Shown: one piece after another, positions 25,454 to 60,941 of the stretch
Numbering within the stretch: the stretch's first letter is position 1
How the letters are laid out: each line of letters begins with the position of its first letter
Assembly: GCA_021782815.1 (NCBI GenBank)
Contig: JAJXUO010000001.1
Location: 1-64,000, forward strand
Source of the DNA: Pseudomonadota bacterium
GTDB lineage: Bacteria; Pseudomonadota; Alphaproteobacteria; Rhodospirillales; Magnetospirillaceae
Reading direction: 5' to 3'
Length of the DNA stretch: 64,000 nucleotides
Translations under genes and position numbers: made by a program
The notes under the pieces: model-generated
What the model was told of the DNA's origin: nothing
The model's input: only the letters and a program-made list of their open reading frames with translations
The model's database searches: none

Positions 25454-25466
25454 CTCCGAAGCGCTT

Positions 25467-25613
25467 ATACCAAATTGCAGTGATCGGAACCGATCACTGC
25501 ACCCTCATGCGCCGGGCGGGTTTCTCCGAAACCCTTGGCTTCGCGCCATCAGGCGCGCGTCGCCTTGCTCCTAACCGGCGTCGCGATGAGTCAAACTCAC
25601 CGCGACTTGGTAT
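25467..25613 (-). repeat. Dispersed palindromic element, copy 1 (147 bp)
   Basis: Full copy, reverse orientation, ending TTGGTAT on the plus strand; its last base is the first base of the gltB stop codon complement, so gltB reads TAA then TACCAAGTCGCG. Bounded by 7-bp inverted ends (ATACCAA / TTGGTAT). Internal hairpins include GTCGCG(G)TGAGT/ACTCATCGCGAC, GGGTTTC/GAAACCC and GCAGTGATCGG/CCGATCACTGC. Nearly identical to the copy at 58771-58917. Confidence 0.9.
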
Positions 25614-28600
25614 TACTCCGCCGCCCGCGCCGTTACCGGGTGGGGCAGGCGGCTCAGCATTTCCTTCGGCACCACCTGCCAGAAGCAGCCGCGTTCGCGG
25701 TGCCAATGGGCCAGGATCTCCTGGGCATGGGCCGACTGGGTTTCCTGGGCATGCTGGCGGATCAGATCCAGCAGCCGATCCTCCCAGTAATTGACCTCGA
25801 TGCGCTGATAGACCACCGATTCCGGATTGACGCGGTGCTGGAAACTGCCGTCCGGATCGTAGACGAAAGCCATGCCGCCGGTCATTCCGGCAGCGAAATT
25901 GGCCCCCACCGCCCCCAGGATGACGGCGGTGCCGCCGGTCATGTACTCGCAGCCGTTGGAGCCGCAGCCCTCCACCACCACATCGGCGCCGGAATTGCGC
26001 ACGGCGAAGCGTTCCCCGGCCTGACCGGCGGCGAACAGCTTGCCCGCCGTGGCGCCGTAGAGCACCGTATTGCCGATGATGGTGTTTTCGTTGGTCTTGA
26101 GCGGGCTCGACACCGGCGGACGGATGACGATCATGCCGCCCGACAGGCCCTTGCCCACATAGTCGTTGGCATCGCCGAACATTTCCAGGCGCAGGCCCTG
26201 CACCGCCCAGGCCCCCAGCGACTGCCCGGCCGAACCGCGCAGGCGCACGGTGATATGGCCGGGCTGCAGCCCGAACATGCCGTAGCGCTTGGTGATCATG
26301 TGCGACAGCTTGGTGCCGATGGCGCGATGGGTGTTGCGCACCGTGTAGGTGAGCTGCATCTTCTCGCCCTCCTCCAGCGCCGGACGGGCGTCGGCGATGA
26401 TCTGGGCGTCCAGGGTTTCCGGCACCTCGTTGCGCCCCTCCAGGGTGCAATAGCGCGGGAACCCGCCGGAATCGGCCTGGGCCAGCAGCGGATTGAGGTC
26501 AAGATCGTCGAGATGGGCCGAACCGCGGCTGACCTGGGCCAGAAGGTCGGAACGGCCGATGATGTCCTCGAGCTTCTTCACCCCCAGACCGGCGAGAATT
26601 TCACGCACCTCCTCGGCGACGAAGCTGAACAGGTTGACCACCTTTTCCGGAGTGCCGGTGAACTTCTTGCGCAGATCGGCATCCTGGGTGCACACCCCCA
26701 CCGGACAGGTGTTGGAGTGGCACTGGCGCACCATGATGCAGCCCATGGCCACCAGCGAGGTGGTGCCGATGCCGAACTCCTCGGCCCCCAGCATGGCGGC
26801 GATGACGATGTCGCGCCCGGTCTTCAGGCCGCCGTCGGTCCTGAGCTTCACGCGGTGGCGCAAACGGTTCAGGGTCAGCACCTGATGCACTTCGGAGAGG
26901 CCCATTTCCCAGGGCAGGCCGGCGAACTTGATGGAGGTTTGCGGGCTGGCGCCGGTGCCGCCCACATTGCCCGACACCAGGATGATGTCGGCCTTGGCCT
27001 TGGCCACACCGGCGGCAATGGTGCCGATCCCTGAGCGGCTGACCAGCTTGACGCAAACCTTGGCCACCGGATTGATCTGCTTCAGATCGTAGATGAGCTG
27101 GGCCAGATCCTCGATGGAATAGATATCGTGATGCGGCGGCGGACTGATCAGGGTGACGCCGGGGGTGGCGTGGCGCAGCTTGGCGATCTCCACCGTCACC
27201 TTGAAGCCGGGCAGCTGGCCGCCCTCGCCGGGCTTGGCGCCCTGGGCCACCTTGATTTCGATCTCGCGGCAGTTCTTCAGATATTCGGCGGTCACGCCGA
27301 AACGGCCCGACGCCACCTGCTTGATGGCCGAATTGGCGTTGTCGCCGTTGGTGGCGGGCTTGTAGCGGCTGGGATCCTCGCCGCCCTCGCCCGACACCGA
27401 CTTGGAGCCGATGCGGTTCATGGCGATGTTCAAGGTGCCGTGCGCCTCGGGCGACAGCGCCCCCAGGCTCATGCCCGGGGTGATGAAGCGCTTGCGCACC
27501 TCGGTGATGCTTTCCACCTCGTCGGTGGAAATGGCCGGACCGGCGGGCTGATATTCCAGAAGGTCGCGCAGACTGATGGGCGGCAGCTTGCGCAGGCCCT
27601 CGGAATAGCGCTTGTAAAGGGTATAGCTGTCGCTGCTGACGGCGCTTTGCAGGGTGTGGATCAGGGTGCCGTCGAAACTGTGGCTCTCGCCGCCCTTGCG
27701 CACGCGATAGAAACTGCCCACCGGCAGGGTGACGGTGCCCTCGCCCCAGGCGCGGCGGTGCATCTCGATCATCTTGTGCTGGATGCCGGTGAGGCCCAGA
27801 CCGGAAATGCGCGAGCTCATGCCGGGGAAGAATTCCGCCACCAGGGCGCGCGACAGGCCCACCGCCTCGAAGCAATAGCCGCCGCGATAGCTGGAGATCA
27901 CCGAAATGCCCATCTTCGACATGATCTTCAGCAGGCCCTGATCCACCGCATGCTTGTAGCGGCGCATGCAGGCTTCCAGGGTAAGGCCGGGGAACAGGCC
28001 GCGGCGATGGCGGTCGGCGATGCTTTCCTGGGCCATGTAGGCGTTGACGGTGGTGGCGCCGACGCCGATCAGCACGGCGAAATACTGCACATCCAGGCAT
28101 TCGCCCGAGCGCACGTTGAGCGAGGTGAAGGTGCGCAGCTGCTGGCGCACCAAGTAGGTGTGCACGGCGCCCGCCGCCAGGATCATGGGAATGGCGGCGC
28201 GGTTGGGGCCGTTCTGTTCATCCGAGAGGATGACGTGGGTGCAGCCGCCGCGCACGGCGTCCTCGGCCTCGCGCTTGATGCGCTGCAGGGCGTCGGCCAG
28301 GGCGTGATCGCCGCCGTTGGGATCGAAGGTGCAATCGATCTCGGCGGCGGTATCGCCCATATAGGCGCGCATGGCCTGGAATTCGGCGGTGGACAGCACC
28401 GGGCTTTCCAGCTGCAGCATGTCGCACTGGCTTTCCTCCTCGTCGAGGATATTGCCGAGATTGCCCAACCGGGTCTTCAGGCTCATCACCCGGCTTTCGC
28501 GCAAGCTGTCGATGGGCGGATTGGTCACCTGGCTGAAGGTCTGGCGGAAATAATGGTGCAGGCCGCGATACTGGTCCGACAGCACCGCCAGCGGCGCGTC

Positions 28601-52552: not shown

Positions 52553-52789
52553 TTATGGCGCCATGGTCTTGTGGGGCATGGTCCCGCCGGTCATATCCTT
52601 CTTCATCATGCCCTTCCTGGCCATGGTCTTGTGGGGCATGGTCTTGTGGGTCATGGGCGTCTTGCTCATGGCGCCCTGGGTCATGCTGCCCTGGGTCATG
52701 GCGGTTCCCGGCCCGGCATCGGCGGCCAGGGCGGCGCTAGCGGCCAGGGCCAGGCCGAGGGACAGGGCGGAAACGGTGATGATCTTCAT
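52553..52789 (-). CDS. Secreted Met-rich MXKDX-type pentapeptide repeat protein
   Basis: 78 aa. Sec signal peptide MKIITVSALSLGLALAASAALA, cleaved around residue 22 or 23. The mature part has Met at 31, 36, 41, 46, 51, 56, 61, 66, 71 and 76, exactly every fifth residue, plus Met62: 11 Met in about 56 residues, with Thr, Lys and His filling between and no Cys or Trp. This is the MXKDX pentapeptide pattern. Related Met-rich periplasmic peptides (MrpX of Azospira) absorb hypochlorite and are repaired by methionine sulfoxide reductase. AAGGAGG precedes the ATG. Divergent from a two-component system, with msrB and dipZ just beyond. Earlier part of the coding DNA has a 23-bp exact repeat with 60-bp period. 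Confidence 0.85.
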   Translation of the reverse strand: MKIITVSALSLGLALAASAALAADAGPGTAMTQGSMTQGAMSKTPMTHKTMPHKTMARKGMMKKDMTGGTMPHKTMAP

Positions 52790-52963
52790 GGAAAGCCTCC
52801 TTCTGATGACCTGAGGACAGGGACAGGCGGCGCCTGTTCGTCCCATTGGCCAGCGTCGGCGCGGCGGCGTCGCGGAGTCCTCACCGGGGCTTAAACAATT
52901 CGTGATTTCTGGCGCAGCGGAAAATGAGGGACAATGATCGCCCCTGTCCCGGAAGGACCGCCG

Positions 52964-53692
52964 ATGGAACGCAGCAGACGTGTCCTGATCGTCGAGGATG
53001 ATGCCCAGATCGCCGCGCTGCTGCGGCTGCATCTGACCGACGAATCCTACGCGGTGGAACATGCCGCCGACGGCCCGGCCGGGCTGCGCCTGTTGGAAAG
53101 CGGGGCCTGGGATCTGCTGGTGCTGGATCTGATGCTGCCCGGCCTGGACGGGTTGGAGCTGTGCAAGCGGGCGCGCGCCCTGCCGCGCTATGTGCCCATC
53201 ATCATCATCAGCGCCCGCTCCAGCGAGGTGCAGCGCATCCTCGGCCTGGAACTGGGCGCCGACGATTATCTGGCCAAGCCCTTTTCCATGCTGGAACTGG
53301 TGGCCCGCGCCAAGGCCCTGCTGCGCCGCGCCGACGCCCTGGCCCATAATGCCCGCCTCGACGCCGGACTGCTGGACCGCCACGGCCTGATCCTGGACCC
53401 GCTGGCCCGCACCGCCCGGCTGAACGGCCGATCCCTCGACCTTACCCCGCGCGAGTTCGATCTGCTGGCCTTCTTCGCCCGCCATCCCGAACGGGTGTTC
53501 TCGCGCCTGCACTTGCTCAACGAGGTCTGGGGCTACAGCCACGACGGCTACGAACATACCGTCAACACCCACATCAACCGTCTGCGCGCCAAGATCGAGG
53601 CCGATCCGGCGGCGCCCACCCGCCTGCTCACCGTCTGGGGGCGCGGCTACAAATTCGCCGATCCGCCCGAAGGCGGCGGGGAGGCGCCATGA
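52964..53692 (+). CDS. OmpR-family response regulator
   Basis: 242 aa. Receiver domain with acidic pocket VEDD, phospho-Asp in LVLDLMLPG, Thr/Ser switch position IISARSS and Lys in YLAKPFS; C-terminal winged helix (LTPREFDLLAFFARHPERVFSR, TVNTHINRLRAKIE, VWGRGYKF). ATG 52964 with GAAGGA upstream gives a normal N-terminus; an ATG at 52934 (GAGGG upstream) is the alternative. Stop overlaps the kinase start. Confidence 0.94.
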   Translation: MERSRRVLIVEDDAQIAALLRLHLTDESYAVEHAADGPAGLRLLESGAWDLLVLDLMLPGLDGLELCKRARALPRYVPIIIISARSSEVQRILGLELGADDYLAKPFSMLELVARAKALLRRADALAHNARLDAGLLDRHGLILDPLARTARLNGRSLDLTPREFDLLAFFARHPERVFSRLHLLNEVWGYSHDGYEHTVNTHINRLRAKIEADPAAPTRLLTVWGRGYKFADPPEGGGEAP

Positions 53693-55149
53693 TGCGGCTG
53701 TCTCTGGCCACCCGCCTGTCGCTGGCCTTCGCCCTGCTGCTGCTGGCCTGCAGCGCCGTTTCCGTGGCCTTGCAGATCCAGTCCAGCGCCCGCCACGAGC
53801 AGGCCCTGGCCCAGCAATTATCGGCGGGACTGGCCGGGCATATCGCCGGAACGGCGCAACTGATGGATGCCGGCGGCTGGCGGCCCGGGGCGGTGCGCGC
53901 CCTGTTCGACAAACTGATGGCGGTCAATCCCGCCGTCGAGGTCTATCTCCTGGACAATGACGGCCGCATCGTCGGCAACGCCGCCCCGCCCGGCCATCTG
54001 AAACGAACGCGGGTGGATCTGGCCCCGCTGCGCCGCCTGCTGGCCGGGGCGGCGCAGCCGGTGCTGGGCGACGATCCCCGCAGCCCCACCGGCCGCAAGG
54101 TGTTCAGCGCCGCCCCGGTGCGGGTGGCGGGACGGCCCGCCGGTTATGTTTATGTCATCCTTCAGGGTGAAACCCGCGACGCCCTGGCCGCCCGCCTGGC
54201 CGACGACGCCGTGCTGCGCACCACGCTGTGGACCACCGCCCTGGTGGCCCTGCTGGGGCTGGGGGTGGGCCTGGCCGCCTTCCGTCTGATCACCCGCCCC
54301 TTGCGCGCCCTGACCGAGGCGGTGCGCGGCTTCGACGCCAACGGCGAAAGCGCGGCGGCCCTGGCCGATGAAGACGCCGCCGACGGCGACGAGATCGCCG
54401 TGCTGCGCGCCGCCTTCGCCCAAATGGGGCGGCGCCTGGGCGAACAATGGCGGGCCCTGACCCGCCAGGATCAGGACCGCCGCGAGCTGATCGCCAATCT
54501 GTCGCACGATCTGCGCACGCCGCTGACCGTGCTGCACGGATCGCTGGAAACCCTGCGCCTGAAGGAGGACGGCCTCGATTGCGGGGAACGGCGGCGCTAT
54601 CTCGACCTCGCCCTCGACCAGAGCGGCAAGGTCAACCGCCTGGCCCGGGAGCTGTTCGATCTGGCCCGCCTGGAATCCGGGCTGATCCAGCCCGAGATCG
54701 AGGTCTTTTCCCTGGCGGATCTGGTGCAGGACGTGGCGCAGAAATTCGAGCTGGCCCTGGCCGCCAACCCGCACCCCCTGACGGTGGCGGCGACACCGCC
54801 GCTGCCGCCGGTGCGCGCCGATCTGGCCATGGTCGAACGGGTGCTGACCAACCTGATCGACAACGCCATCCGCCACACTCCGGCGGGCAGCGCCATCACC
54901 GTCTCGTTGCGCCGGGCGGAGGAGGGGGGGCAACCGGGCGTGGAGGTGGAGGTGGCCGATAGCGGCCCCGGCATCGCGGCGGCGCGGCGAGACGGCCTTT
55001 TCACCCGGGCCTCGGCCTTCAGCCACGCGGGCGGCGGCGGTCTGGGGCTGGTGGTGGTGCAGCGCCTGCTGGCCCTGCAGGGCAGCGCGGCGCGGCTGGC
55101 CGACCTGCCGGACCGGGGCGCGGTGATCCGCTTCCGCCTGCCGGAATAA
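53689..55149 (+). CDS. Two-component sensor histidine kinase
   Basis: 486 aa. Two membrane helices (LSLAFALLLLACSAVSVAL, residues about 9-28, and TTLWTTALVALLGLGVGLAAF, about 180-200) bracket a periplasmic sensor domain of about 150 residues that lacks cysteines; then HAMP, HisKA with ANLSHDLRTPLT, N box NLIDNAIRHT, and G boxes DSGPGIA and GGGLGLVVV. ATG overlaps the response regulator. Its TAA stop is directly followed by a collapsed repeat element. Confidence 0.93.
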   Translation: MMRLSLATRLSLAFALLLLACSAVSVALQIQSSARHEQALAQQLSAGLAGHIAGTAQLMDAGGWRPGAVRALFDKLMAVNPAVEVYLLDNDGRIVGNAAPPGHLKRTRVDLAPLRRLLAGAAQPVLGDDPRSPTGRKVFSAAPVRVAGRPAGYVYVILQGETRDALAARLADDAVLRTTLWTTALVALLGLGVGLAAFRLITRPLRALTEAVRGFDANGESAAALADEDAADGDEIAVLRAAFAQMGRRLGEQWRALTRQDQDRRELIANLSHDLRTPLTVLHGSLETLRLKEDGLDCGERRRYLDLALDQSGKVNRLARELFDLARLESGLIQPEIEVFSLADLVQDVAQKFELALAANPHPLTVAATPPLPPVRADLAMVERVLTNLIDNAIRHTPAGSAITVSLRRAEEGGQPGVEVEVADSGPGIAAARRDGLFTRASAFSHAGGGGLGLVVVQRLLALQGSAARLADLPDRGAVIRFRLPE

Positions 55150-55150
55150 G

Positions 55151-55203
55151 ACCAAGTCGGGATGAGGAGGCGGGGATCGGGTCCGATCACCGCACTTTGG
55201 GAT
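55151..55203 (+). repeat. Collapsed remnant of the dispersed element
   Basis: ACCAAGTCGGGATGAG, matching the left end of the element with one change, is joined after 8 bp to GATCGGGTCCGATCAC and a degenerate TTTGGGAT right end. The middle of about 90 bp is missing. Begins two bases after the kinase stop codon. Confidence 0.65.
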
Positions 55204-55207
55204 AAGT

Positions 55208-55234
55208 CTCACGGAATTTTGAACTTTCCGTGAG
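55208..55234. promoter_or_regulatory. 9-bp inverted repeat upstream of msrB
   Basis: CTCACGGAA / TTCCGTGAG with a 9-nt spacer, 64 bp before the msrB start. Could be a regulator site or an mRNA hairpin. Confidence 0.45.
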
Positions 55235-55298
55235 GACTCCGCCACCGGCGCCACCCCATCTTTATGTCATCACGCCCTTTAAACGCCGCGAGGATGCG

Positions 55299-55781
55299 AT
55301 GACAACCCGACGTTCCTTCCTGCTGTCCGCCGCCGCCCTGGGATCGCTTCTGGCCGTCCGCCCCGTCCGGGCGCAGGAGCGCTTCGCCGTTTCCATGAGC
55401 GAGGCCCAATGGCGGGCCCGGCTGACCCCGGCGCAATACGACATCCTGCGCGCCGAAGGCACCGAGCCGCCTTATTCCAGCCACCTGACCGGCGAACACC
55501 GTTCCGGCCTGTTCGCCTGCGCCGGCTGCGCCCTGCCGCTGTTCTCCTCGGCCGCCAAGTTCGACAGCCATACCGGCTGGCCCAGTTTCTGGACGCCGCT
55601 GCCCGGCGCCGTGAAGGAACGCGCCGATTCCTCCTTCGGCCTGCAGCGTACCGAGGTGCATTGCGCCCGCTGCGGCGGCCATCTCGGCCATGTTTTCCCC
55701 GACGGCCCGCCGCCCACCGGCCTGCGCTACTGCATCAACGGCCTGGCCCTGGCCTTCACGCCCGGCCCCGCCCGCCTCTAA
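55299..55781 (+). CDS. msrB: Tat-exported peptide-methionine (R)-S-oxide reductase MsrB
   Basis: 160 aa. Twin-arginine signal TTRRSFLLSAAALGSLLAV with an AxA-like end near VRAQ predicts a periplasmic enzyme, unlike cytoplasmic MsrB. The reductase core has zinc Cys74/Cys77 (CAGC) and Cys122/Cys125 (CARC), WPSFW, and the catalytic Cys145 in RYCIN. I see no obvious resolving Cys close to the usual recycling position, so regeneration probably uses the neighbouring membrane thioredoxin fusion. ATG 55299 with GAGGA upstream; a GTG at 55230 would bury the Tat signal. The stop codon's last base begins a full repeat element. Confidence 0.92.
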   Translation: MTTRRSFLLSAAALGSLLAVRPVRAQERFAVSMSEAQWRARLTPAQYDILRAEGTEPPYSSHLTGEHRSGLFACAGCALPLFSSAAKFDSHTGWPSFWTPLPGAVKERADSSFGLQRTEVHCARCGGHLGHVFPDGPPPTGLRYCINGLALAFTPGPARL

Positions 55782-55930
55782 TACCAAGTCGCGATGAGTT
55801 TGACTCATCGCGACGCCGGTTAGGAGCAAGGCGACGCACGCCTGATGGCGCGTTAGGCAAGGGTTCTGGAAGAACCCGCCCGCCGCCTGAGGGACTCCGT
55901 TGATCGGTTCCGATCAGCGGGATTTGGTAT
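55781..55930 (+). repeat. Dispersed palindromic element, copy 2 (150 bp)
   Basis: Full copy, ATACCAA to TTGGTAT. The left end is fused to the msrB TAA; the right end is followed at once by AAGGA, the ribosome site of the next gene. Hairpin 1 here is perfect (GTCGCGATGAGT / ACTCATCGCGAC). Confidence 0.9.
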
Positions 55931-55944
55931 AAGGAACCCCCGCC

Positions 55945-57684
55945 ATGCTGCTGTTCGTGCTTTCCTATCTGGGCGGCGCCCTGACCATTCTCAGCCCCTG
56001 CATCCTGCCGGTGCTGCCTTTCGTCTTCGCCCGCGCCGACCAGCCCTTCCTCCGCTCCGGCCTGCCGCTGCTGGCCGGCATGGCCGCCACCTTCGCCCTG
56101 GTGGCCTCGGCGGCGGCCCTGGGCGGCGGCTGGGTGGTCACCGCCAATCAGGCCGGGCGCTGGGCCGCCCTGGCCCTGATGGCCCTGTTCGCCCTGACCC
56201 TGCTGCTGCCCGGCTGGGCCGAACGGCTGACCCGGCCGCTGGTGGCGGCGGGCGCCCGGCTGGCGCGGGTGGCCGAAGGCGGCGAGGGCCGGCCCGCCAC
56301 CGCCTTCCTGCTGGGCATCGCCACCGGCCTGCTGTGGGCCCCCTGCGCCGGGCCGATCCTGGGCCTGGTGCTGGCCGGCGCCGCCCTCAACGGCGCCTCG
56401 GCGGCCACGCTGCTGCTGCTGCTGGCCTACGGCGCCGGGGCCGCCACCTCGCTGGCCCTGGCGCTGCTGGCGGGAGGAAAGGTCTTCGCCCTGCTGAAAC
56501 GGTCGCTGCATGCCGGGGAATGGATCCGCCGCGGTCTGGGCGCCGCCATGCTGGCCGGGGTGATCGCCATCGCCCTGGGGTTGGATACCGGGGCCCTGGC
56601 CGCCCTGTCCACCGCCTCGACGGCGGGATGGGAACAGGATCTGCTGGACCGCCTGACCCCGCCGGCCCCCGCCGCCTCGGCCACCTCGGCTGCCGTGCCG
56701 CCCGCCGCCGCCGACGCCCTGCCGGTGGAGGGCCGGGCCCCGCCGCTGGACGGCGCCGTGCAATGGCTGAATTCGCCGCCGCTGACCCCGGCCGCCCTGA
56801 AAGGCAAGGTGGTGCTGGTGGATTTCTGGACCTATTCCTGCATCAACTGCCTGCGCACCCTGCCTTACGTGAAAGCCTGGGCCGCCAAATACCGCGATCA
56901 GGGCCTGGTGGTGATCGGCGTGCATACGCCCGAATTCGCCTTCGAGCGCGATCCGGCCAATGTGGCCGCCGCCGTGGCCCGCCTGGGCATTTCCTATCCC
57001 GTGGCCCTCGACAACCGCTACGCCGTCTGGAACGCCTTCGCCAACCAGTACTGGCCGGCGCATTATTTCATCGACGCCCGGGGCCGGATCCGCCACCACC
57101 ATTTCGGCGAGGGCGGTTACGCCGAGTCGGAACGGGTGATCCAGAGCCTGCTGCGCGAGGCCGGAGCGGCGCATGTCTCCACCAGCCTCGTCGATGTGCG
57201 GGGGCAGGGGGTGCAACGGGCCGCCGAGGATGCCGACGAGCGCTCGCCCGAAACCTATCTGGGTTACAGCCGCGCCGAACGCTGCGCCTCGGCTCCGGTG
57301 CAGCCCGATCGCGACGCCCTCTACCAGAGCCCCGCCACCCTGCCGCCCGATGGCTGGGGGCTGACGGGGCGCTGGATCGTCGGCGCCGAACAGGTGCGGC
57401 TGAGCGCGGCGGGCGGGCATATTTTCTACCGCTTCCACGCCCGCGACCTGCATCTGGTGCTGGGGCCGGGCCCCGGCGGCGCGCCGGTGCGCTTCCGGGT
57501 CAGCCTCGACGGCCACGCCCCCGGCGCCGCCCACGGGGTGGACACGGCGGCCGACGGCAGCGGCGTCATCCGCGCCCAGCGGCTCTACCAGCTGATCCGC
57601 CAGCCCGGCCCCATCACCGACCATGTCTTCGGCATCGAGTTCCTCGATCCCGGCGCCGAGGCCTATGCCTTTACGTTCGGCTGA
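55945..57684 (+). CDS. DipZ-type CcdA/thioredoxin fusion, periplasmic reductant supplier
   Basis: 579 aa. Residues 1-230 are a CcdA/DsbD-beta-like membrane domain with the redox Cys pair in LSPCILPVLPF and WAPCAGPILGL; 245-400 is a TlpA-like thioredoxin domain with a CINC active site (WTYSCINCLRTLPY) and YPVALDN; 400-579 is a beta-rich DipZ C-terminal domain. It carries electrons from cytoplasmic thioredoxin across the membrane. Directly behind msrB, so MsrB is the likely client. RBS AAGGA follows the repeat element. Confidence 0.9.
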   Translation: MLLFVLSYLGGALTILSPCILPVLPFVFARADQPFLRSGLPLLAGMAATFALVASAAALGGGWVVTANQAGRWAALALMALFALTLLLPGWAERLTRPLVAAGARLARVAEGGEGRPATAFLLGIATGLLWAPCAGPILGLVLAGAALNGASAATLLLLLAYGAGAATSLALALLAGGKVFALLKRSLHAGEWIRRGLGAAMLAGVIAIALGLDTGALAALSTASTAGWEQDLLDRLTPPAPAASATSAAVPPAAADALPVEGRAPPLDGAVQWLNSPPLTPAALKGKVVLVDFWTYSCINCLRTLPYVKAWAAKYRDQGLVVIGVHTPEFAFERDPANVAAAVARLGISYPVALDNRYAVWNAFANQYWPAHYFIDARGRIRHHHFGEGGYAESERVIQSLLREAGAAHVSTSLVDVRGQGVQRAAEDADERSPETYLGYSRAERCASAPVQPDRDALYQSPATLPPDGWGLTGRWIVGAEQVRLSAAGGHIFYRFHARDLHLVLGPGPGGAPVRFRVSLDGHAPGAAHGVDTAADGSGVIRAQRLYQLIRQPGPITDHVFGIEFLDPGAEAYAFTFG

Positions 57685-58543
57685 GCTTGTCTGCGGTGCG
57701 GGTTTCGAAATCGGCGGCGTCGTGGCGTTCGTGCAGCTGTTCGGCCGGATCGCCGGTCAGGCGGTTGACCATGCGCCCGCGCCGCACCGCCGGACGCGCC
57801 TGAAGGGCCTCGGCCCAGCGCCGCACGTTCTTGTAGTCCTGCACCGACAGGAAGGTGGCGGCGCCGTAGAGCCAGCCCAGAACCAGCCCGCCATACCAGG
57901 GAAACACCGCCATATCGGCGATGGTGTAGTCCGGCCCGGCCAGATAGGCGGTTTCGGCCAGGCGGCGGTCCAAAACGTCGAGCTGGCGCTTCGTCTCCAT
58001 GGCGAAGCGGTCGATGGCATATTCGAACTTGGCCGGCGCGTAGGCGTAGAAATGCCCGAAACCGCCGCCGAGATAGGGAGCGCTGCCCATCTGCCAGAAC
58101 AGCCAGTTCAGGGTTTCGGTGTGGCCGGCATGATCCTGGGGCAGGAAGGCGCCGAATTTTTCCGCCAGATAGAGCAGGATGGAGCCGGATTCGAACACCC
58201 GCACCGGGGCGGGGCCGGAGCGGTCGAGCAGGGCGGGGATCTTGGAGTTGGGATTGATGGCGACGAAACCGCTGCCGAACTGCTCGCCATCGCCGATGCG
58301 GATCGGCCAGGCGTCGTACTCGGCCCCGGCATGGCCCAGGGCCAGCAGTTCCTCCAGCAGAATGGTCACCTTCTGGCCGTTGGGCGTGGCCAGGGAATAA
58401 AGCTGCAAGGGATGGCGGCCCACCGGCAGCTCTTTTTCGTGCGTCGGCCCGGCGATGGGCCGGTTGATGCTGGCGAAGGCGCCACCGCTGGGCTTGTTCC
58501 AGGTCCAGACCGGCGGGGGGGTATAGTCGGGGCTATCCGTCAT
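57671..58543 (-). CDS. yghU: YghU-type glutathione S-transferase
   Basis: 290 aa. N-terminal PPPVWTWNKPSGGAFASINRPIAG and PVGRHPLQLYSLATPNGQKVTILLEEL identify the YghU/Ure2p-like class, which binds two glutathiones and has disulfide-bond reductase activity. ATG 58543 starts the family N-terminus. Overlaps the dipZ stop by 14 bp, convergent. Confidence 0.93.
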   Translation of the reverse strand: MTDSPDYTPPPVWTWNKPSGGAFASINRPIAGPTHEKELPVGRHPLQLYSLATPNGQKVTILLEELLALGHAGAEYDAWPIRIGDGEQFGSGFVAINPNSKIPALLDRSGPAPVRVFESGSILLYLAEKFGAFLPQDHAGHTETLNWLFWQMGSAPYLGGGFGHFYAYAPAKFEYAIDRFAMETKRQLDVLDRRLAETAYLAGPDYTIADMAVFPWYGGLVLGWLYGAATFLSVQDYKNVRRWAEALQARPAVRRGRMVNRLTGDPAEQLHERHDAADFETRTADKLSRT

Positions 58544-58770
58544 GGGGGGCGTCCTTGAGGAGGAGGAGGATCGGGCATGCGGGCGGGCGAACCGGCCGCT
58601 GGGCCTTATATAGGACGCCGGCAAACGATTTTGCAGCCGGGTGGATGCTGCGGCCCCACCTGCGCCTCACACGGATAGGGAGGCTCGCCCGACGTTGTGG
58701 GCTCATTGAGCGGCATGTTGGAGGGGGAGGGGTCGGTGCTTGTCACCTTCGTGCGACAGATCGGCCAGTT
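58544..58770. other. Intergenic, nothing recognised
   Basis: About 230 bp between the GST and repeat copy 3. No reading frame resembles a protein and I see no clear promoter or terminator. Confidence 0.5.
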
Positions 58771-58917
58771 ATACCAAGTCGCGGTGAGTTTGACTCATCG
58801 CGACGCCGGTTAGGAGCAAGGCGACGCGCGCCTGATGGCGCGAAGCCAAGGGTTTCGGAGAAACCCGCCCGGCGCATGAGGGGGCAGTGATCGGTTCCGA
58901 TCACTGCAATTTGGTAT
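58771..58917 (+). repeat. Dispersed palindromic element, copy 3 (147 bp)
   Basis: Full copy in open intergenic DNA: ATACCAA (58771) to TTGGTAT (58917). Hairpin 1 is 58778-58804 (12-bp arms, one G-T mismatch); GGGTTTC/GAAACCC follows; the last hairpin GCAGTGATCGG/CCGATCACTGC is 58884-58907. Best copy to use as the family consensus. Confidence 0.92.
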
Positions 58918-60491: not shown

Positions 60492-60859
60492 CCTGGCTGC
60501 ACGATCTCTGCTATCTGTTCGGCGGCGCCTTTTTCGCCAATGCCGTTCCACATATGGTCAGCGGCATGATGGGGCGGCCCTTTCAAAGCCCTTTCGCCAA
60601 ACCGCCGGGCCAGGGGCTTTCCTCCTCCACCGTCAATGTGCTCTGGGGCGGCGCCAATCTCGTTGCCGCCTATTGTCTGATTTTTCAGGTGGGCAGGATC
60701 GATCTTCACGCCGTCGACCAGGCCGGGGCCATCGGGGGCGGCGTGCTGCTGAGCGCCATGCTGGCGGCGCGCCTGTTCGGGCGGTTTCACGGCGGCAACG
60801 CGCCGTCCGTTTCCGCCTCCGGGCAAAGGCCGGTTAGGAGCAAGGCGACGCGCGCCTGA
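60488..60859 (+). CDS. Conserved small membrane protein with repeat-derived C-terminus
   Basis: 123 aa, about three hydrophobic segments (LFGGAFFANAVPHMVSGMMG, VLWGGANLVAAYCLIFQV, GGGVLLSAMLAARLFGRF). GRPFQSPFAKPPGQGLSSSTVNVLWG is a conserved family stretch, function unknown. The last nine residues (PVRSKATRA) and the stop are encoded by repeat copy 4, so the original C-terminus has been replaced or extended. ATG overlaps the upstream stop. Confidence 0.8.
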   Translation: MTWLHDLCYLFGGAFFANAVPHMVSGMMGRPFQSPFAKPPGQGLSSSTVNVLWGGANLVAAYCLIFQVGRIDLHAVDQAGAIGGGVLLSAMLAARLFGRFHGGNAPSVSASGQRPVRSKATRA

Positions 60860-60941
60860 TGGCGGGGTGAGGCAAAGCGCGCCATCAGGCACGACGCCAA
60901 GGGTTTCGGAGAAACCCGCCCGGCGCATGAGGGCGCGGTAT
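60829..60941 (+). repeat. Dispersed palindromic element, truncated copy 4 (113 bp)
   Basis: Starts at GCCGGTTAGGAGCAAGG, so it lacks the left end and first hairpin; the GGGTTTC/GAAACCC hairpin is intact; the right hairpin is missing, leaving GCGCGGTAT at the end. It carries an internal inverted duplication of the CGCGCCTGATGGCG segment not seen in other copies. Confidence 0.8.

Follow-up and report, generated by a model that had tools for sequence, protein, structure and literature searches.

The first 64,000 nucleotides of contig JAJXUO010000001.1 (assembly GCA_021782815.1, a genome of the Magnetospirillaceae), here called the window, contain a gene cluster for an exported methionine-rich protein (MRP), a two-component system, an MsrB-type methionine sulfoxide reductase (Msr) and DipZ. 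A sequence-only reading had proposed that these genes defend the cell envelope against methionine oxidation; open reading frame and family scans found all the genes it had listed, in the order MRP, divergent regulator/kinase pair, msrB, dipZ.

The MRP gene (52553..52789, minus strand) encodes 78 amino acids with a methionine at every fifth residue (positions 31, 36, 41, 46, 51, 56, 61, 62, 66, 71 and 76) and a signal that is of the Sec-type, judged by eye. Ten of the 11 methionines of residues 23-78 lie in one five-residue register, which none of 200,000 shuffles of these residues matched, confirming the periodicity described before. The NCBIfam model for pentapeptide MXKDX repeat proteins (TIGR02953) gives 32.8 bits, below its curated cut-off of 41; this cut-off is passed by the syntenic MRPs of the related genomes G020, G025, G029 and G034, and not by that of G049. 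The Pfam scan returned no match to the window MRP. Most Lys and Asp residues of the repeat are replaced while the five-residue methionine spacing is kept, and this pattern reads as if selection acted on methionine itself. The protein is probably disordered.

The regulator (52964..53692, plus strand; Response_reg and Trans_reg_C) and the sensor histidine kinase with its periplasmic domain (53689..55149, plus strand; HisKA and HATPase_c) are a genuine OmpR-type pair, as the sequence-only reading had it. Both score with heavy-metal subfamily models, at 154 and 118 bits, below the respective cut-offs of 279 and 293. The position of Met77 of the kinase is a methionine in all 17 close kinases, within the conserved periplasmic stretch LFxxLMxxNPSVEVY, and before residue 262 the window kinase has a single cysteine, Cys21, which lies in the first membrane helix.

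The msrB product (55299..55781, plus strand) matches SelR of Pfam (159.1 bits) and TIGR00357 (159.1 bits, cut-off 113.05). It starts with MTTRRSFLL, and R4 and R5, as well as its five cysteines (74, 77, 122, 125 and 145), are invariant in all 14 aligned rows. Four of the cysteines are probably zinc ligands and Cys145 probably the catalytic residue, with no classical resolving cysteine. Such an enzyme would have to be reduced directly by a partner of the thioredoxin type, and the obvious candidate is the CINC-bearing domain of DipZ. DipZ itself (55945..57684, plus strand) has a CcdA-like membrane part fused to a thioredoxin-like and a C-terminal domain: residues 5-224 match CcdA (5vkv, E 1.1e-9), residues 258-511 match the solved structures named 'Protein DipZ' (5cyy, 2hyx; E 1.2e-61), Thioredoxin_10 scores 152.3 bits and DsbD_TM 18.7 bits, the latter under its cut-off of 27.1.

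The identity of this CcdA/thioredoxin fusion had thus been recognised correctly, but it does not lie directly behind msrB: the gap is 163 bp long and holds a dispersed repeat (55779..55933, strand not assigned), found by sequence comparison. At 18 other MsrB-DipZ loci the gap measures between -9 and 57 bp in 17 cases and 147 bp in one. Further copies of the repeat lie at 25464-25615, 58771-58917 and 60829-60933 of the window (two near-full, 86-87% alike, and one broken), partial copies are present on other contigs of the genome, and the gap between the kinase gene and msrB has a partial copy too.

A common operator upstream of the MRP gene and msrB

Matrix and pattern searches identified a putative 33-bp operator at two places in the cluster. 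Site 1 (52873..52905, minus strand) is in the intergenic region common to the MRP and regulator genes, 83 bp upstream of the MRP start, and site 2 (55209..55241, plus strand) is 57 bp upstream of the msrB start. The consensus from 26 sites is TCACgntTtnTTTAACTtTnCGTGAGGAcTTnG. A matrix built solely from 11 sites of relatives, aligned by eye, ranks the two sites first and second in the window (39.7 and 34.9 bits); the third-ranked match (11.9) is the msrB site read in reverse, no other independent position scores above 2.1, and 20 mononucleotide shuffles reached at most 14.8. This is a cleaner test than the reciprocal one with 13 sites from outside the window's family, in which the window's two sites again take the top ranks (36.6 and 29.7 bits, with at most 21.1 in the reversed background of 186 loci) and which is not fully independent, as those 13 sites were picked with a matrix that included the window's own. 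In pattern searches with up to three mismatches the window had two matches and 100 shuffles had none.

The operator goes with the regulator. With up to two mismatches, the pattern matched 14 times in 16 whole genomes and a control pattern not once in all 16. All 14 matches are in genomes with a close kinase: two in the window's genome (G000), three in G020, one in G033 and two each in G025, G029, G034 and G049. In the window's genome the two copies upstream of the MRP gene and msrB are the only ones. No operator was found in any of the nine searched relatives that lack the regulator (G001, G005, G007, G014, G017, G042, G044, G050 and G119), six of which have Tat-MsrB-DipZ. All six relatives with an orthologous regulator carry the operator upstream of msrB, even G020, G025 and G033, where msrB is away from the regulator, and its distance to the msrB start is 54-58 bp in seven of seven genomes. 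G033, in which no MRP was found, has a decayed regulator-side site (7.7 bits) and an intact msrB site.

Since the operator is common to both genes, the sequence data support reading MRP and msrB as one regulon, in which the MRP is co-regulated with an exported methionine sulfoxide reductase. The operator is the strongest evidence for a defence by methionine-rich peptide and Msr.

Convergent to dipZ lies a gene for a glutathione-dependent disulfide-bond oxidoreductase (57671-58552, minus strand; PRK11752, 517 bits); the pattern search of the window returned no operator match near it.

Recurrence in relatives and other lineages

Co-occurrence beyond this genome had been set beforehand as a test of the sequence-only reading, and MRP, orthologous regulator/kinase pair and Tat-MsrB do recur together in relatives. 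Of 149 related genomes searched, G000 included, seven have a close kinase: G000 and, at 66-77%, G020, G025, G029, G033, G034 and G049. TIGR02953 matched in ten of the 149 genomes, and nine of these matches are genuine by eye; the one in G042 lies within a long efflux-type outer-membrane protein and was rejected. Diverged MRPs were picked up by this profile but not by a scan for methionine content. Kinase and MRP are found together in six genomes, the kinase alone in one and the MRP alone in three (Fisher p 4e-8, ignoring kinship), and in all six the two genes share a contig on opposite strands. The gene order regulator, kinase, MsrB, DipZ is as in the window in G034 and G049; msrB-dipZ follows 7-9 kb behind the kinase in G033 and G025, msrB 1.4 kb behind it in G029, and in G020 msrB and the regulator are on different contigs. 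DipZ adjoins msrB in the window, in G025, G033, G034 and G049 and in the six relatives without regulator. There is a Tat-MsrA gene behind dipZ in G033 and behind msrB in G029 (PF01625 for G029). The kinase of G049 (L035 8828-10281) is split over two overlapping frames, either by a frameshift or by an assembly error. G058 has a more distant kinase (34%); behind its regulator pair lies a gene for an exported fusion of MsrA and MsrB.

A census with TIGR02953 covered three genome sets that overlap, with 149, 385 and 398 members (the handles number 887). Of 62 listed MRP loci, 58 were kept, among them the doubtful L106 and L112; L107, L109, L110 and L111 were dropped by eye as weak matches in long, Lys-rich or cytochrome-type proteins. 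Within about 6 kb of the 58 loci there are MsrP-like genes at 24, cytochrome b at 20, extracytoplasmic function (ECF) sigma factors at 16, MsrA at 8, MsrB at 6 and DipZ at 4, and a regulator with 60% identity or more at 12 and one with 45-60% at 5. An operator of at least 33 bits is present at each of the 12 loci with the close regulator, although only six of them (L118, L132, L134, L136, L139 and L144) are independent, as the matrix contains the family's own sites. None of the 46 other MRP loci reaches 33 bits; the best scores are 25.7 at L119, where MsrP and MRP occur, and then 18.0, and 17.0 is the maximum in a background of 202 reversed loci (3.27 Mb). At L095, L113, L140, L143 and L147, whose regulators are more distant (45-60%), no operator was found.

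The same census bears on copper stress as another explanation, in which the Met/His-containing MRP would bind Cu(I), the two-component system would sense copper and MsrB/DipZ would keep copper-binding methionines reduced. Methionine-rich segments do bind Cu(I), and in E. coli msrPQ is induced by the copper sensor CusSR and repairs the copper chaperone CusF (PMC9302797); in addition, the mature window MRP has three histidines and the regulator and kinase score with the heavy-metal models, though under cut-offs. However, none of the 27 neighbour clusters that are present at three or more of the 58 MRP loci resembles a copper exporter, oxidase or chaperone by eye (the main clusters were family-scanned), the MRPs of relatives are mostly of the Lys/Asp type with few histidines, and the operator is at no third place in the window's genome. 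We consider a copper module unlikely.

The operator was also searched in named genomes, at the best 80 MsrB loci. It is upstream of msrB at seven of these: Pseudomonas putida ASAD (50.4 bits), P. moorei (49.5), Burkholderia sp. SRS-46 (48.5), a Comamonas metagenome-assembled genome (MAG; 41.1), Paraburkholderia nodosa (40.2), Stenotrophomonas maltophilia LMG 978 (29.8) and a Stenotrophomonas MAG (24.6); the highest score among the remaining loci is 16.1. Regulator (68-73%) and kinase adjoin at five of the seven, and MsrA is present at six, the Comamonas contig ending early. A search for MRPs in ten named genomes (the seven and three others) returned six matches, of which five are genuine by eye, all among the seven. 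The Stenotrophomonas MAG encodes a 193-residue Met/His-rich membrane-anchored protein (L256 1246-1827), perhaps metal-binding, which is longer than and unlike an MRP and was not counted as one.

These genomes also bear on the possibility that the regulon serves envelope repair in general (MsrB, MsrA, MsrP), with the MRP acting as a signal or a chaperone substrate that by its oxidation reports stress to the kinase, rather than as a bulk sink. A single intergenic operator common to the MRP and regulator genes would suit such a role, as would the invariant periplasmic Met77 of the kinase. But regulator, operator and MsrB persist without a detected MRP in the Stenotrophomonas genomes and G033, where signalling can thus do without the MRP, and many MRPs occur without this kinase; we regard a signalling MRP as improbable.

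Several further loci combine related parts. G854 (L137 5430-10735), listed in the same phylum as the window's genome and not in the same class, has a SigF-type sigma factor and NrsF (PF06532), an MRP, a weakly FecR-like Tat protein, Tat-MsrB, DipZ and MsrA; judged by its gene content, it is an independent second case of MRP with Tat-MsrB, DipZ and MsrA, in which predicted control of the Azospira type is combined with repair of the window's type. At L086, L096, L097 and L147 a distant regulator/kinase pair (regulator 52-56%) is beside MsrA and MsrB genes, as exported fusions in L086 and L147 and with an MRP only in L147; these four lack the operator and probably use another site. At L089, L090, L091, L102, L103 and L105 methionine-rich Lys/Asp repeat proteins are beside an ECF sigma factor and a second conserved gene, and no Msr was found nearby.

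Exchange of the repair module

The sequence-only reading had held that MsrB takes the place of MsrP here, and comparison of the loci bears this out. The window's genome, rated 100% complete, has three MsrB and one MsrA, and a profile search found no MsrP-family gene (PF00174). In other genomes the same regulator type and operator occur with MRP, cytochrome b and MsrP: the third operator of G020 heads genes for cytochrome b561 (PF01292) and for a member of the MsrP family (PF00174), the regulator-side site of G029 heads cytochrome b-MsrP-MRP, and in P. putida ASAD and P. moorei the MRP gene is the last of a separately located cytochrome b-MsrP-MRP operon that has the 33-bp operator at its head (48.9 and 52.1 bits, respectively). 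The MRP of Burkholderia and Paraburkholderia is by cytochrome b-MsrP without an operator (-0.5 and 1.9 bits). Both modules are present in G020, G029 and the two Pseudomonas.

In a kinase tree of 28 rows, built without the split kinase of G049, the MsrB-type regulators form a group (11 rows, support 85/92) beside the MsrP-only ones; the number of module exchanges is not countable from this tree. Tree and modules fit a history in which an MsrP regulon acquired MsrB-DipZ and later lost MsrP, a scenario with moderate support.

That unrelated genes are merely kept together by descent is very improbable. The closest relatives are not independent, it is true, and six relatives have MsrB-DipZ with neither regulator nor MRP, but the operator accompanies msrB and cytochrome b-MsrP to distant places (G020, G025, G033, P. 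putida ASAD and P. moorei).

Proposed function and known systems

We read the cluster as a two-component-controlled envelope regulon against methionine oxidation, with a probability of about 70%. The kinase would sense an oxidant-related signal in the periplasm and the regulator would bind the operators upstream of MRP and msrB-dipZ. The regularly spaced methionines of the exported MRP would react with the oxidant, Tat-exported MsrB would reduce R-sulfoxides in the MRP and in other envelope proteins, and DipZ would carry electrons from cytoplasmic thioredoxin to MsrB. The window's regulon would be the thiol-driven form, the other form using cytochrome b561 and MsrP. Slightly favoured over its denial is the more general proposition that one regulator and operator were kept while the repair module was exchanged between cytochrome b561-MsrP (quinone/molybdenum) and MsrB(-DipZ)(-MsrA) (thiol), with both in a few genomes; in the window's genome, with no such molybdoenzyme, the sacrificial methionine protein would then be recharged via DipZ and MsrB with thioredoxin electrons.

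Several observations weigh against this regulon reading. The Tat signal of MsrB is called from its motif, with the Pfam TAT model at 13.3 bits, below its cut-off of 22.7. Inside the repeat between msrB and dipZ there is a terminator-like stem (55896-55921), and the repeat may uncouple the two genes. DipZ, expected from the earlier reading to accompany MsrB, does so in four of the relatives with the regulator, but is not beside msrB in the fetched stretches of G029 and G020, nor at one of the seven operator-msrB loci, that of P. putida ASAD (in all three, the rest of the genome was not searched). No MRP was found in G033, which has regulator and msrB, or in the two Stenotrophomonas genomes, which have regulator, operator, MsrB, DipZ and MsrA, and at 26 of the 58 MRP loci no Msr gene lies within some 6 kb. 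Finally, the search of the window's genome turned up no exported MsrA, unlike in G029 and G033: the sole MsrA there and the adjoining MsrB have no signal sequence by eye, so that S-sulfoxides would stay.

The combination of MRP, MsrB, DipZ and two-component system was not found by title or abstract in the open-licence literature, nor were the operator and the module exchange; in this respect the earlier statement that no described system with this combination was known stands, but it needs qualification, as each half is already in print, one being a two-component system with an MsrPQ-like enzyme and a methionine-rich peptide, the other a two-component system with MsrAB, Trx and CcdA. In Azospira suillum a periplasmic methionine-rich peptide, MrpX, and MsrP (YedY) are under SigF/NrsF (as cited in PMC8315932 and PMC8550376), thus resembling the window in peptide and sulfoxide reductase, with sigma/anti-sigma control and a molybdoenzyme in place of two-component system and MsrB/DipZ. 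Methionine-rich proteins of Brucella act with Msr systems against HOCl: BcrS/AbcS-BcrXQP of Brucella melitensis combines an MXKDX protein and a sulfoxide reductase pair in one HOCl-induced operon, but with ECF sigma control and MsrQP homologues (PMC8315932). The first half is the locus of uropathogenic E. coli with the two-component system OrhK/OrhR, the sulfoxide reductase system C3566/C3567 and the small methionine-rich MrpX homologue C3568, which differs in its MsrPQ-like enzyme and, as described, has no MsrB/DipZ (PMC8550376); the DNA of the distant regulator/kinase pair of L143 had no match in E. coli genomes. HprSR/CusSR-MsrPQ of E. coli likewise places periplasmic methionine sulfoxide repair under two-component control, with MsrPQ and no methionine-rich sink among the annotated genes of the examined K-12 stretch (PMC9302797). 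The second half is ModRS-MsrAB-Trx-CcdA of Fusobacterium nucleatum, which is H2O2-induced and shares with the window a two-component pair, thiol-type Msr and thioredoxin-like and CcdA-like parts at one locus; it differs by a fused MsrAB, separate Trx and CcdA and no methionine-rich sink in the described five-gene locus (PMC9239216). Methionine sulfoxide reductase systems also occur near chlorite dismutase genes, with MsrB unmentioned in the main text of that report (PMC9751292). The window's system would thus be a variant of the known envelope defence by methionine-rich peptide and Msr.

The regulon with its exchangeable module is seen in the window's family, in Pseudomonas, Stenotrophomonas and Paraburkholderia and in other lineages of the phylum. 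What appeared as an odd gene cluster becomes a regulon with a predicted binding site, in genera that are workable in the laboratory. Two envelope repair chemistries that have been studied separately, MsrP with quinone electrons and MsrB/MsrA with thiol electrons, would be linked as exchangeable parts under one regulator, and the recharging of a sacrificial methionine-rich protein becomes a directly testable question.

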